In this document: in pieces, positions 60,840 to 64,000 of the stretch
Layout: each line of letters opens with the position of its first letter
Position numbering within the stretch: position 1 is the stretch's first letter
Assembly: GCF_023078475.1 (NCBI RefSeq)
Contig: NZ_CP095741.1
Coordinates: 1,798,001 to 1,862,000 of the forward strand
Length of the DNA stretch: 64,000 bases
Reading direction: 5' to 3'
Source of the DNA: Luteibacter aegosomaticola
Lineage (GTDB): Bacteria; Pseudomonadota; Gammaproteobacteria; Xanthomonadales; Rhodanobacteraceae
Translations under genes and position numbers: made by a program
Notes under the pieces: generated by a model
Seen by the model: only the letters and a program-made list of their open reading frames with translations
The model's database searches: none
What the model was told of the DNA's origin: nothing

Positions 60840-60941
60840 TTTTGGTGGTAGCGTAAGGTTTCGCGTGTCCGGGCAGGCGGGCAAGCCGGTGCCTTACCGT
60901 GGGGTGGGGCGGCTTCGGCATTCGTCGTGGGGAGAGCACGC

Positions 60942-63149
60942 GTGGTTGCCCAACGTCCGGCGGCCCCGGCGTTCCGCTATCGGGCCTTCATCAGTTATAG
61001 CCACCGGGACAAAGCCTGGGCGGCGTGGCTGCACCGCGCGCTCGAGCGTTACACCATCCCCCATCGCCTCGTCGGCACGTTGACCGAGACCGGTGTGGTG
61101 CCGCGCCGGCTCAGTCCCATATTTCGCGACGCCGATGAACTTGCCACGGCCCGCGATCTCGGCCAGAAGGTCACCCAGGCGCTCGGGCAATCGGCGTGCC
61201 TGGTGGTGGTCTGCTCTCCGGCTGCAGCTTTGTCCCGTTGGGTCGATGAAGAGATCCGGACCTACCAGCGCCTCGGTGGCGGCGAGCGGATCTTCTGCCT
61301 CGTGGTCGGCGGTGAGCCCAACGCCAGCCGCATCCCCGGCCGTGGGGCCGAGGAATGTTTTCCGCCTGCGTTGCGCCAGCGCTACGACGCGGAGGGCGGC
61401 CTCAGCGACGACGTCATCGAGCCACTCGCTGCGGATGTCCGTTCCGGCGGCGACGGCAAGGCCGATGCACTGTGCAAGCTGGTGGCGGGGATGCTGGGCG
61501 TCGGCCTCGATACCCTGAAGCGACGCGACCTGCAGCGCCGCGCACGGCGCGCGGTGGCGCTCTCCGCCGTGGCCCTGGCCGTGGCGCTGGTAATGACCCT
61601 TCTTGCGCTCCGTGCGACCCTCGCACGGCGAGATGCCGTGGTCGCAAGCCACGTCGCGGAGCGCCGGCAGAAGGATGCAGAGGATCTGGTCGCCTTCATG
61701 CTGGGTGACCTGAATGACCGGCTGGCCCAGGTATCGCGGCTGGATATCCTCGAAGCGGTGGATGACCGCGCGATGGCGTATTTCCAGGCCCAGCCCACGA
61801 ACGAGGTGAGCGACCGGGCTTTGCTCCAGCGTGCGACGGCGCTGGAAAAGATTGGCAGCGTGCGACTGGATCAGGGGCGGCTGGATGCGGCGCTCGCATC
61901 GTACGAAGCGGCGCGCGTCGTTGCCGTCCGGCTGGCGGCCGACCAGCCTTCCGACGTGTCCCGCCAGGGGTTGCTCGGAGAGATCACGACCTTCATTGGC
62001 ATGGTGCACTGGCGGCAGGGCCGGCTGGATGACGCGCAGCGCACGTTCGCTGACGCACGCGGCGTGTTGGTCGCTGCGGAACAGGCGTCGCCCACGAACG
62101 ATGACCTGCACTTCCAGCTTGCCCTGCTCGATAACAACATGGGACGGGTGATGGAAGCGCGCGGTGCGCTGGATGAGGCGGGCGCGCATTACCGCGACAT
62201 GCTCGGCCGCTTGCAACGTCTTGCGGCGGCCGATGGCGGCAATGTGGATGTTGCGGAGTGGCTCGGGTCCGCGCATTACAACCTGGGCAAGCTGGCATTG
62301 ATGCGCGGCGAGCTTGCCCACGCCGTGGCGGAATTTTCTGCCGACGAAGCCATCCAGGCACGGCTGAGCCGTGCCGAGCCCAAGGATGCCAATCGCCAGG
62401 ACAGCCTGCTCAACGTGCAGGCCATGCTCGGCCGTGTACAGGTGCTCGCGGGCGATGTGCCTGCGGGGACGGCGCGCCTGCAACAAGCGGTCGACGCCGC
62501 GCGCGCGCTCGTTGCCCTCGACCTGAGCAACACGGATGCGCAGGAGCACGTCGCGCTGTTCTCCATCCAGCTCGCGCGTCTGCGCCGACTCGCGGGGGAG
62601 CACGCGGCCGCGCGCGATCTCCTTGCAGCGGCCATGCCCATCTTCGCGATGCTGCGCAAGCAGGACCCGCGTAACGCCGCGTGGCAGCGCGAGTACGCCG
62701 AAGCCCAGGTCGAGGCATCGGCCCAGGCGTTGCTGCGCGGTGATCGCGTGGCGGCCAACGCCGCCGCAAACGACGCCATGCGCTGGCTAGGGCCACTGCG
62801 CGCCGCACAACCCGCCGACCGGGCGACGCTGCTTGCCGCGCTCAGCGCGTGCCTCGCGGCCGCGGATGCCGCGCCCGACGCTGTTGCAGCGCGCATGCTT
62901 CGCGAGCGCGCACTGGGCGAGGCCGGTGCGGATGGGGCCCAGGCGGACCCCCGGCTCCTCGCGTTACGGACCGAGGCCATGCTCGCGCTTGGACGCCGGG
63001 CGGATGCCGCGCCACTCATCGAAACGTTGCGGGTAGCGGGCTACCGCGACCCCGCGCTCGTACAGCGCCTGCGCAGCCAGCACATTGATTACCCCGTCAA
63101 CGAGGCCTTCCAGCGCGAGCTGGTCGCCGCGACGGGCGGCAGCCGTTAG
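60942..63149 (+). CDS. TIR-domain protein with transmembrane helix and helical repeats
   Basis: I prefer the GTG at 60942, which has GGGGAGAG in front of it (735 residues); a GTG at 60927 adds five residues. Counting from 60927, the TIR domain is about 17-150 (RAFISYSHRDKAWAAWLH, FRDADEL). It contains the SRWVDEE motif, whose first Glu (108) matches the catalytic glutamate position of TIR NADases. A transmembrane helix follows at about 208-228 (VALSAVALAVALVMTLLAL). About 480 residues of TPR-like helical repeats come next (SDRALLQRATALEKIGSVRLDQGRLDAALASYEAARVV). A membrane-tethered sensor-effector is suggested. Two more genes follow, 38 bases away. Confidence 0.88.
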   Translation: MVAQRPAAPAFRYRAFISYSHRDKAWAAWLHRALERYTIPHRLVGTLTETGVVPRRLSPIFRDADELATARDLGQKVTQALGQSACLVVVCSPAAALSRWVDEEIRTYQRLGGGERIFCLVVGGEPNASRIPGRGAEECFPPALRQRYDAEGGLSDDVIEPLAADVRSGGDGKADALCKLVAGMLGVGLDTLKRRDLQRRARRAVALSAVALAVALVMTLLALRATLARRDAVVASHVAERRQKDAEDLVAFMLGDLNDRLAQVSRLDILEAVDDRAMAYFQAQPTNEVSDRALLQRATALEKIGSVRLDQGRLDAALASYEAARVVAVRLAADQPSDVSRQGLLGEITTFIGMVHWRQGRLDDAQRTFADARGVLVAAEQASPTNDDLHFQLALLDNNMGRVMEARGALDEAGAHYRDMLGRLQRLAAADGGNVDVAEWLGSAHYNLGKLALMRGELAHAVAEFSADEAIQARLSRAEPKDANRQDSLLNVQAMLGRVQVLAGDVPAGTARLQQAVDAARALVALDLSNTDAQEHVALFSIQLARLRRLAGEHAAARDLLAAAMPIFAMLRKQDPRNAAWQREYAEAQVEASAQALLRGDRVAANAAANDAMRWLGPLRAAQPADRATLLAALSACLAAADAAPDAVAARMLRERALGEAGADGAQADPRLLALRTEAMLALGRRADAAPLIETLRVAGYRDPALVQRLRSQHIDYPVNEAFQRELVAATGGSR

Positions 63150-63187
63150 CAGGGTCACAACGTAGTCCACCCCAGCAGGAGAACGAG

Positions 63188-63337
63188 ATGTCCAACGCAG
63201 ACGATCGTGACGATGCACCGGATGACCAACGCAAGGACCTGCCTGAAAACGACGCCGATGCCGCCGCCGGAGCCGCCGCGCGGCCATTGATGGAGCCGTC
63301 GCTCATCACCAAGAAGCCAGGCATCAAACCCTCATGA
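63188..63337 (+). CDS. 49-residue acidic protein in the TIR operon
   Basis: An ATG at 63188 has GGAGAACGAG before it and an open frame of 49 codons. Its stop overlaps the next ATG (ATGA). The peptide begins MSNADDRDDAPDDQRKDLP, then has an Ala-rich centre and a basic C-terminal end (MEPSLITKKPGIKPS). It is probably disordered. The tight coupling and the ribosome site support a real gene; the role could be adaptor, inhibitor or antitoxin-like, which is speculation. Confidence 0.6.
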   Translation: MSNADDRDDAPDDQRKDLPENDADAAAGAAARPLMEPSLITKKPGIKPS

Positions 63338-64000
63338 TGCCGCTGGTGGTCGGTGTCACGAGCCATCGCGACATTGCACCCGAGGATATCGAGCCCGTCC
63401 GCGAGGCGGTCAGGGCATTCTTCCGCCAACTCCAGGAGCACATCCCGGGGACGCCGTTGCTCGTGCTTTCCGCGCTGGCGGAAGGCGGCGACCAGCTGGT
63501 GGCGGAAGAAGCGCTGGCCATCGGTGCAAAGCTCGTGGCGCCGCTGCCCTTGCCACCGGATCTGTACGTCGATGATTTCGACGACGTGGGCGTGCGCGCG
63601 TTATTCGAATCGTTGCGCAAGCGGGCCGAGGTCGTGCTGCTGCCGCGGTTGATGGAGACCCCACGGCACGTCGTGGGATCCCCCGGTGCGGCACGCGATC
63701 GGCAATACGCCAAGGCCGGCGTCTACATTGCCAGCCATTGCCACGTGTTGCTGGCGTTGTGGGACGGCAACGAAGCCAACGGTATCGGCGGCACGGCGCA
63801 AATCGTGCACTACCACCTCACCGGTGGCCTACCTGGGCCGACGCTCCGCCACCAGCACATCCGCCATGTACTGGCGGGGGGTGACGAGAGCCTGCTGTAC
63901 CACATCGTGTGCCCGCGGGCCGGCGAGTCCGTCGCGGAGGGATTGCGCCCCCTGCAGGCGGGTTGGCGCACTGTCGACGACATGTCATTCAGACCGGAGT
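63334..64000 (+). CDS. GHR/SLOG-like nucleotide-sensing protein, N-terminal part (truncated by window)
   Basis: The frame starts at ATG 63334 (a second ATG follows at 63337) and stays open to the window end, giving about 222 residues. The start MPLVVGVTSHRDI and the later LLVLSALAEGGDQLVAEEAL are typical of Rossmann-like GHR/SLOG proteins, related to LOG and DprA folds and often predicted to bind nucleotide-derived signals. Further on, SHCHVLLALWDGNEANGIGGTAQIVHYHLTG fits the same fold: a sensor-type strand, then a glycine-rich turn. Similar N-termini occur in proteins with a C-terminal RyR domain, which may lie beyond 64000. The TIR gene upstream suggests a signalling or conflict system. Confidence 0.75.
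   Translation, partial: MMPLVVGVTSHRDIAPEDIEPVREAVRAFFRQLQEHIPGTPLLVLSALAEGGDQLVAEEALAIGAKLVAPLPLPPDLYVDDFDDVGVRALFESLRKRAEVVLLPRLMETPRHVVGSPGAARDRQYAKAGVYIASHCHVLLALWDGNEANGIGGTAQIVHYHLTGGLPGPTLRHQHIRHVLAGGDESLLYHIVCPRAGESVAEGLRPLQAGWRTVDDMSFRPE

Follow-up and report, generated by a model that had tools for sequence, protein, structure and literature searches.

A TIR-TPR gene of Luteibacter aegosomaticola and its relatives is paired with a SLOG-SLATT gene and accompanied by small proteins sharing a C-terminal tail

The stretch analysed here (the window) comprises 64,000 nucleotides, bases 1798001-1862000 of the single-contig 5.09 Mb genome of Luteibacter aegosomaticola. Three genes lie at its end, all on the + strand. 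The first (60927..63149) encodes a protein of 740 amino acids (735 from a GTG at 60942, a start that agrees with the length of a 99% identical protein) with a TIR domain, a transmembrane (TM) segment and TPR repeats. The second (63188..63337) encodes an acidic protein of 49 amino acids, and the third starts at 63334, overlapping it by ATGA. The window holds the N-terminal 222 amino acids of the third protein (63334..64000), which begins MMPLVVGVTSHRDI, with LSALAEGGDQLVA; extension past 64000 gave the complete SLOG-SLATT gene, ending at 65019 and encoding 561 amino acids (L002:6335-8020 in the numbering of our own locus, L002, corresponding to 63334-65019 in window numbering). The nearest named proteins are mostly from Luteibacter, one at 85% being labelled Bacillus sp. 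NP157. A preliminary description of the window had reported a TIR domain with an SRWVDEE motif, a TM helix and TPR-like repeats, followed by a tiny acidic protein of 49 residues and the ATGA overlap, and all of these were recovered.

The TIR domain (60987..61310, + strand, residues 21-128 counted from 60927) matched Pfam TIR_2 (E 7.5e-13) and ThsB_TIR (E 1.1e-7), and the PADLOC SAVED-TIR model (4.6e-7). S103, W105, V106 and E109 of the SRWVDEE motif (61233..61253, + strand) are invariant in 17 aligned homologues, and E109 aligned with the Glu of SKWCLMEL in the plant L6 TIR in a search of solved structures (a weak match, E 0.057). According to PMC7282519, NADase activity (cleavage of nicotinamide adenine dinucleotide, NAD) of the prokaryotic TIRs examined requires the Glu equivalent to E109. 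Judged from its sequence, the TIR protein is a probable NAD-cutting enzyme. A single hydrophobic segment (residues 210-228; 61554..61610, + strand; Kyte-Doolittle) separates the TIR domain from the remainder of the protein. The TPR region (approximately 61830..63131, + strand; Pfam match and family profile against PDB) scores weakly in the window's member (TPR_12 2.1e-5, under its cut-off), but the profile of the family clearly matches solved TPR proteins (4.7e-10 for the best of them in PDB).

The third protein had been called GHR/SLOG-like; the predicted fold is indeed of the SLOG/LOG type, while the name GHR was supplied by no model. Towards the C-terminus there are two pairs of hydrophobic segments, four in all (Kyte-Doolittle), and the structure model contains long helices, an architecture resembling the 2-TM hairpins with adjoining helices of SLATT domains. 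The Pfam model DUF4231 scored 24.8 bits, just at its cut-off (24.7). SLATT_1 and SLATT_3 scored 14.6 and 11.1 bits in Pfam (cut-off 26.3 for both) and 27.7 and 22.4 bits in NCBIfam (cut-offs 41 and 45; E 2.2e-6 and 9.8e-5). Because of the four hydrophobic segments and the weak SLATT matches, gene 3 looks like a sensor and a membrane effector in a single chain, and its product is a probable signal-gated membrane protein. Neither SIR2 nor macro models matched gene 3 at E<=1, PADLOC had no match for proteins 2 and 3, and Foldseek returned nothing at E<=0.001 for either structure model. The RyR partner suggested earlier was ruled out as part of the window's locus, given no Pfam RyR match in the four proteins scanned. 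In another locus, a fragment of 100 amino acids resembling the first SLOG residues (L052:10009-10311) precedes a full SLOG-SLATT gene and may be a duplication remnant.

The 49-residue protein has no Pfam match and ends in LITKKPGIKPS, of which KPGIKPS (63314..63334, + strand) is an IKPS variant of a C-terminal tail, [N/D]PxIxN. Small open reading frames (ORFs) between or beside the TIR and SLOG genes of relatives are very unlike each other in length and sequence and share this C-terminal end. Among 108 unique tailed ORFs the tail reads [N 55, D 23]-P-x-[I 101, V 7]-[K 75]-N-x, where P, the I/V choice and N are set by the search pattern itself, and at most one residue follows the Asn in 93 of them. 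The signal is in the protein, since Pro is encoded by all four of its codons and Asn and Lys by both of theirs; Ile also varies synonymously. The IKPS ending recurs in L033, L036, L038/L097, L039/L098, L101 and L103 (IKPT in L130), and so looks like a lineage variant and not decay. The 108 ORFs fell into 21 clusters (66, 12, 6, 5, 2, 2 and 15 singletons), which rules out one conserved sequence family for the small gene. Judged by eye, the groups comprise a beta-sandwich (66), acidic proteins, another set rich in beta structure, singletons, and mini-proteins whose starts resemble signal peptides; a few ORFs include N-terminal stretches read from the TIR frame. Searches of PDB with tailed proteins or tails, and with profiles of alignments A4 and A3, gave no useful match, and no paper on the tail or the cluster was met in a literature search that barely targeted C-terminal motifs and did not use the motif letters. 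In loci of the Dyella type, the TIR gene has short tailed proteins, made mostly of Ala-Pro repeats, on its far side (L046:4770-4943, L047:13276-13461, L114:3761-3940). In two further proteins the motif is internal and a C-terminal hydrophobic segment follows, as if to tether the tail to the membrane (L070:9722-10345, DPVIRNGG; L091:2482-3072, DPQIKNGG).

The tail-tagged class of small proteins goes with the TIR gene, and the tail is nearly restricted to it. Across 80 named loci (the best 80 of 229 relatives) and our own, strict tails were present in 74 of 2536 ORFs near TIR or SLOG genes vs. 2 of 4034 elsewhere (odds ratio 61, p 1.5e-28), using a strict pattern derived from loci L033-L072 and then counted in named loci partly of the same genomes. 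Both tails found elsewhere belong to one unrelated family (PVPGVxNIWR); chance probably accounts for this pair and for at least two of the singletons (L046:12814, L143:3013). Of 61 loci with both genes, 44 had the strict tail, 3 a variant found by pattern and 13 a variant found by eye, so that the total of 60/61 includes 13 tails accepted with a pattern widened after viewing; the only locus without a tail, L122, has a truncated TIR gene. NPxIKNx followed by a stop was searched genome-wide in 147 genomes of the family, which overlap the genomes that gave the pattern, and had 34 matches in 23 genomes, compared to 1 for the reversed pattern. Three of the 34 end in TGG, which is not a stop, and 30 of the remaining 31 have a TIR gene, or what is left of one, no more than 1 kb away. 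Among TIR genes without an adjoining SLOG gene, 8 of 9 had a tailed ORF (detected by the pattern in L073-L078 and recognised by eye in L080 and L203; L079 had none), a count that leaves out L081, L082 and L084 (cut or partial) and L083 (of other make-up). By the strict or IKPS pattern, 17 of 20 SLOG loci with no TIR gene on the stretch had no tail, a looser inspection covering 10 of the 20. One genome (G158) has SLOG without TIR at one locus (L202) and TIR with a tail at another (L203). TPR-only relatives of about 1100-1180 amino acids (L085-L088), presumably kinases, and longer TIR proteins of other kinds (L204-L207) had no tail by pattern (0/8). An ORF on the opposite strand inside the SLOG gene of L214 matched a looser pattern and was treated as chance. 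The preliminary description could name no arrangement that matched the gene order and the small acidic gene; it had missed the class to which this gene belongs.

Protein 3 was present in 50 of the 147 family genomes. Protein 1 had matches in 69, namely the same 50 and 19 others, of which 17 matched through the TM-TPR part only. The match reached the TIR domain in 49 of the 50 SLOG-SLATT genomes (the exception, G128, matched in TPR parts only); only about 45 residues of the domain matched in G097 and G140, and the TIR copy of G108 contains stops. A TIR match was found in 2 of the 97 family genomes without SLOG (G018, G120), with at most 7 candidates scored per genome, so that a TIR gene in SLOG-less genomes could be missed. 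The gene arrangement exceeds chance, because 37 of 41 wide SLOG loci, our own among them, had a TIR gene on the stretch retrieved. There it is upstream of the SLOG gene, on the same strand or divergent, and in some named loci it is downstream. The genes are thus conserved together, as had been supposed. Two genomes of the genus have the upstream LysR-type gene and no SLOG gene. At class level, the SLOG-SLATT profile was found in 4 of 274 genomes, own included, and in a genome of another order (G406) all three parts occur together, with the tail DDPRIRNRPV (L201). In another gammaproteobacterial family, a TIR_2-TPR gene adjoins a distant SLOG-SLATT gene (L200:6497-10398), with no tailed ORF found there. 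In other classes of the phylum, RyR-domain genes are found in the vicinity of distant SLOG-SLATT relatives (L210:3327-8742, L211, L212), accompanied by TrkA_N in L211 and L212; between the two genes of L210 is one for a patatin-like phospholipase, which overlaps the SLOG-SLATT gene by a few bases. Five further distant loci (L208, L209, L213-L215) had no TIR gene among the part of the neighbours scanned, and a WD40 protein is among the neighbours in L209.

Compared to the SIR2-SLOG type of Thoeris (ThsB and ThsA), the cluster has the TIR protein with the presumed catalytic Glu (TIR_2, ThsB_TIR and invariant E109 in the sequence) and the SLOG sensor but not the SIR2 effector; the effector part of gene 3 is SLATT-like, the TIR protein has TM and TPR parts, and tailed small proteins accompany it. 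SLATT effectors reportedly figure in the nucleotide-centred conflict systems of Burroughs 2015. In PMC9503650 and PMC7159879, SLATT is predicted to be a nucleotide-responsive membrane effector and phage TIR-SLATT neighbourhoods are described, the likeness being SLATT beside TIR genes; in our cluster, SLOG shares its chain with a pair of SLATT-like hairpins, and the partners are TIR-TM-TPR and tailed proteins. The closest working analogue is TM-macro Thoeris, in which, according to passages of PMC11204291, TIR makes an NAD-derived nucleotide and the membrane is presumably disrupted by a TM effector that carries a nucleotide sensor. The sensor is macro there and SLOG here, and the tailed proteins have no counterpart in those passages. 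For the tail, the closest analogue is the FxSxx-COOH class, which according to PMC7159879 (section 24) consists of fast-diverging small proteins with a conserved C-terminal peptide and TIR/TPR effector partners. There a metallopeptidase, and for FxSxx also a radical-SAM enzyme, processes the peptide. The present motif differs (tails [N/D]PxIxN or IKPS-like, with the C-terminal FxSxx motif absent) and is carried by several proteins that are unlike each other; among the best 25 of 136 Pfam families in a sample of 120 of 371 neighbour genes, Peptidase_M20 was found in 2 and radical SAM in none. Neither TM-macro Thoeris nor the FxSxx-COOH class covers the present cluster.

Building on the gene pairing, the SLOG fold, the hydrophobic segments and the shared tail, we propose a three-part, membrane-linked NAD-signal switch, composed of a tailed front end, a TIR signal maker and a SLOG-SLATT membrane effector; as a whole, we give this scheme an even chance. 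The variable front end would consist of small proteins of various kinds that bear the tail, each locus having one or more of them. The TIR-TPR protein would recognise this common tail, in the simplest case by binding it with its TPR repeats. A change in the tailed protein during stress or phage infection would activate the TIR domain. This domain has retained the Glu that is invariant in NAD-cleaving TIRs and, as expected from its family, would produce a nucleotide derived from NAD. The nucleotide would be bound by the SLOG domain of gene 3, and the SLATT-like part, with its four hydrophobic segments, would perturb the inner membrane, perhaps as a pore, and the cell would stop. That the TIR and SLOG-SLATT proteins act in one pathway is highly probable, and that TIR makes the signal and SLOG senses it is fairly likely. 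The membrane-linked TIR-SLOG variant proposed earlier keeps these likely roles, and is modified in that gene 3 looks like sensor and effector together. Reading of the tail by the TIR-TPR protein is a tentative step, a little short of an even chance, and an anti-phage role is evenly balanced in our judgement; the system may serve envelope stress instead. The same tail on otherwise unlike small proteins suggests that different sensors could be exchanged on a single enzyme. Such a common plug would be a testable answer to how a bacterial TIR system detects its trigger, a question with few answers so far. The fusion of SLOG with SLATT-like parts, together with a TIR protein of its own, also makes a compact system for testing whether SLATT is, as predicted, a membrane effector gated by nucleotides.

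Several results weigh against this scheme. The SLATT scores of gene 3 are under the curated cut-offs. One tail of the genome-wide search (G051) adjoins a SLOG gene without TIR, and three loci (L117, L120, L143) have SLOG and a tail with no TIR gene on the stretch; L117 and L143 are close to the contig start, L120 is not. Within the TIR protein, conservation is lower in the TPR region than in the rest, which one would not readily expect for the reader of a conserved tail. The topology raises a difficulty too, since a single TM segment between TIR and TPR would place them on opposite sides of the membrane. Judged by eye, the N-termini of some tailed proteins resemble signal peptides, and other tailed proteins seem to be cytosolic or tail-anchored. 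Finally, in the structure model of the beta-sandwich the tail packs with high confidence as a strand on its own domain, and therefore may not be free to bind TPR.

A more far-reaching reading takes the tail for a releasable or exchangeable strand. The tailed beta-sandwiches are predicted to share the fold of SO1698 of Shewanella oneidensis, of the DP-EP family (PF08985, formerly DUF1888), and could free their own [N/D]PxIxN last strand by Asp/Asn-Pro self-cleavage upon arrival of the trigger, the peptide then activating the TIR-TPR receptor and the acidic mini-proteins mimicking the freed tail. Taken as a whole, we consider this unlikely. The PF08985 cut-off was not reached: 0 of 29 sequences in alignment A4 matched at E<=0.5 and 3 of 32 in alignment A6 matched (best E 0.0037), with L203 at 16.8 bits vs. 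25. Asn-Pro is commoner here than the Asp-Pro of that family (55 vs. 23 of 108 tails), and Lys98 of SO1698 seems aligned with Gly97 (phmmer; the alignment stops there). A PF08985 search of 185 class genomes was uninformative, the controls being silent too. To our knowledge, SO1698 has no link to TIR. Were the releasable-tail reading true, the system would amount to a modular immune receptor of bacteria, with unrelated sensors sharing one TIR enzyme via a common C-terminal peptide.

The three-part switch has to be weighed against other explanations. The TIR protein itself might kill by NAD depletion, SLOG-SLATT being a separate membrane effector or a regulator that senses the NAD product. Tailed TIR genes without an adjoining SLOG gene exist (L073-L078, L080, L203) and therefore TIR and tail may work alone; however, the seven source genomes (G051, G093, G102, G107, G141, G144, G158) all have SLOG-SLATT elsewhere and only 2 of the 97 SLOG-less family genomes have a TIR match, and we regard this explanation as improbable. 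A similarly low probability is given to the tail being a sorting, secretion or assembly signal in an envelope or surface-stress system unrelated to immunity. The signal-peptide-like N-termini or C-terminal TM segments of some tailed proteins would fit it, as would the structural relatives found, PixA and MakD, which we take to belong to other biology. The neighbourhood would fit it too, and here counts against the switch as an immune system: the defence island considered earlier did not emerge, since PADLOC matches were scattered in the sampled neighbour genes (best 25 of 29 families) with no visible excess over 40 window genes (885-60438; best 25 of 34 families). By contrast, conflict systems typically show a patchy presence (here 50/147 family genomes), the pairing of TIR with SLOG and small proteins that have diversified. 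Chance, or a DNA-level effect such as the ribosome-binding site of the next gene or a recombination site, might be invoked for the tail, as several tails end near the SLOG start codon, that of the window included; the synonymous codon variation, the tails where no SLOG gene follows and the reversed-pattern control make this very improbable.

The sampled neighbour genes have mostly ordinary functions in the Pfam scan described above, and 2 of the 120 have another TIR_2 domain. One of the 40 window genes scanned matches PADLOC PD-T4-6 models (1.1e-68). Just downstream of the cluster lies a DUF488 gene (L002:8154-8687; 65153-65686 in window numbering), which was ruled out as part of it, having relatives in only 5 of 23 genus genomes, and which matches the PADLOC candidate model PDC-M45B (8.3e-27).
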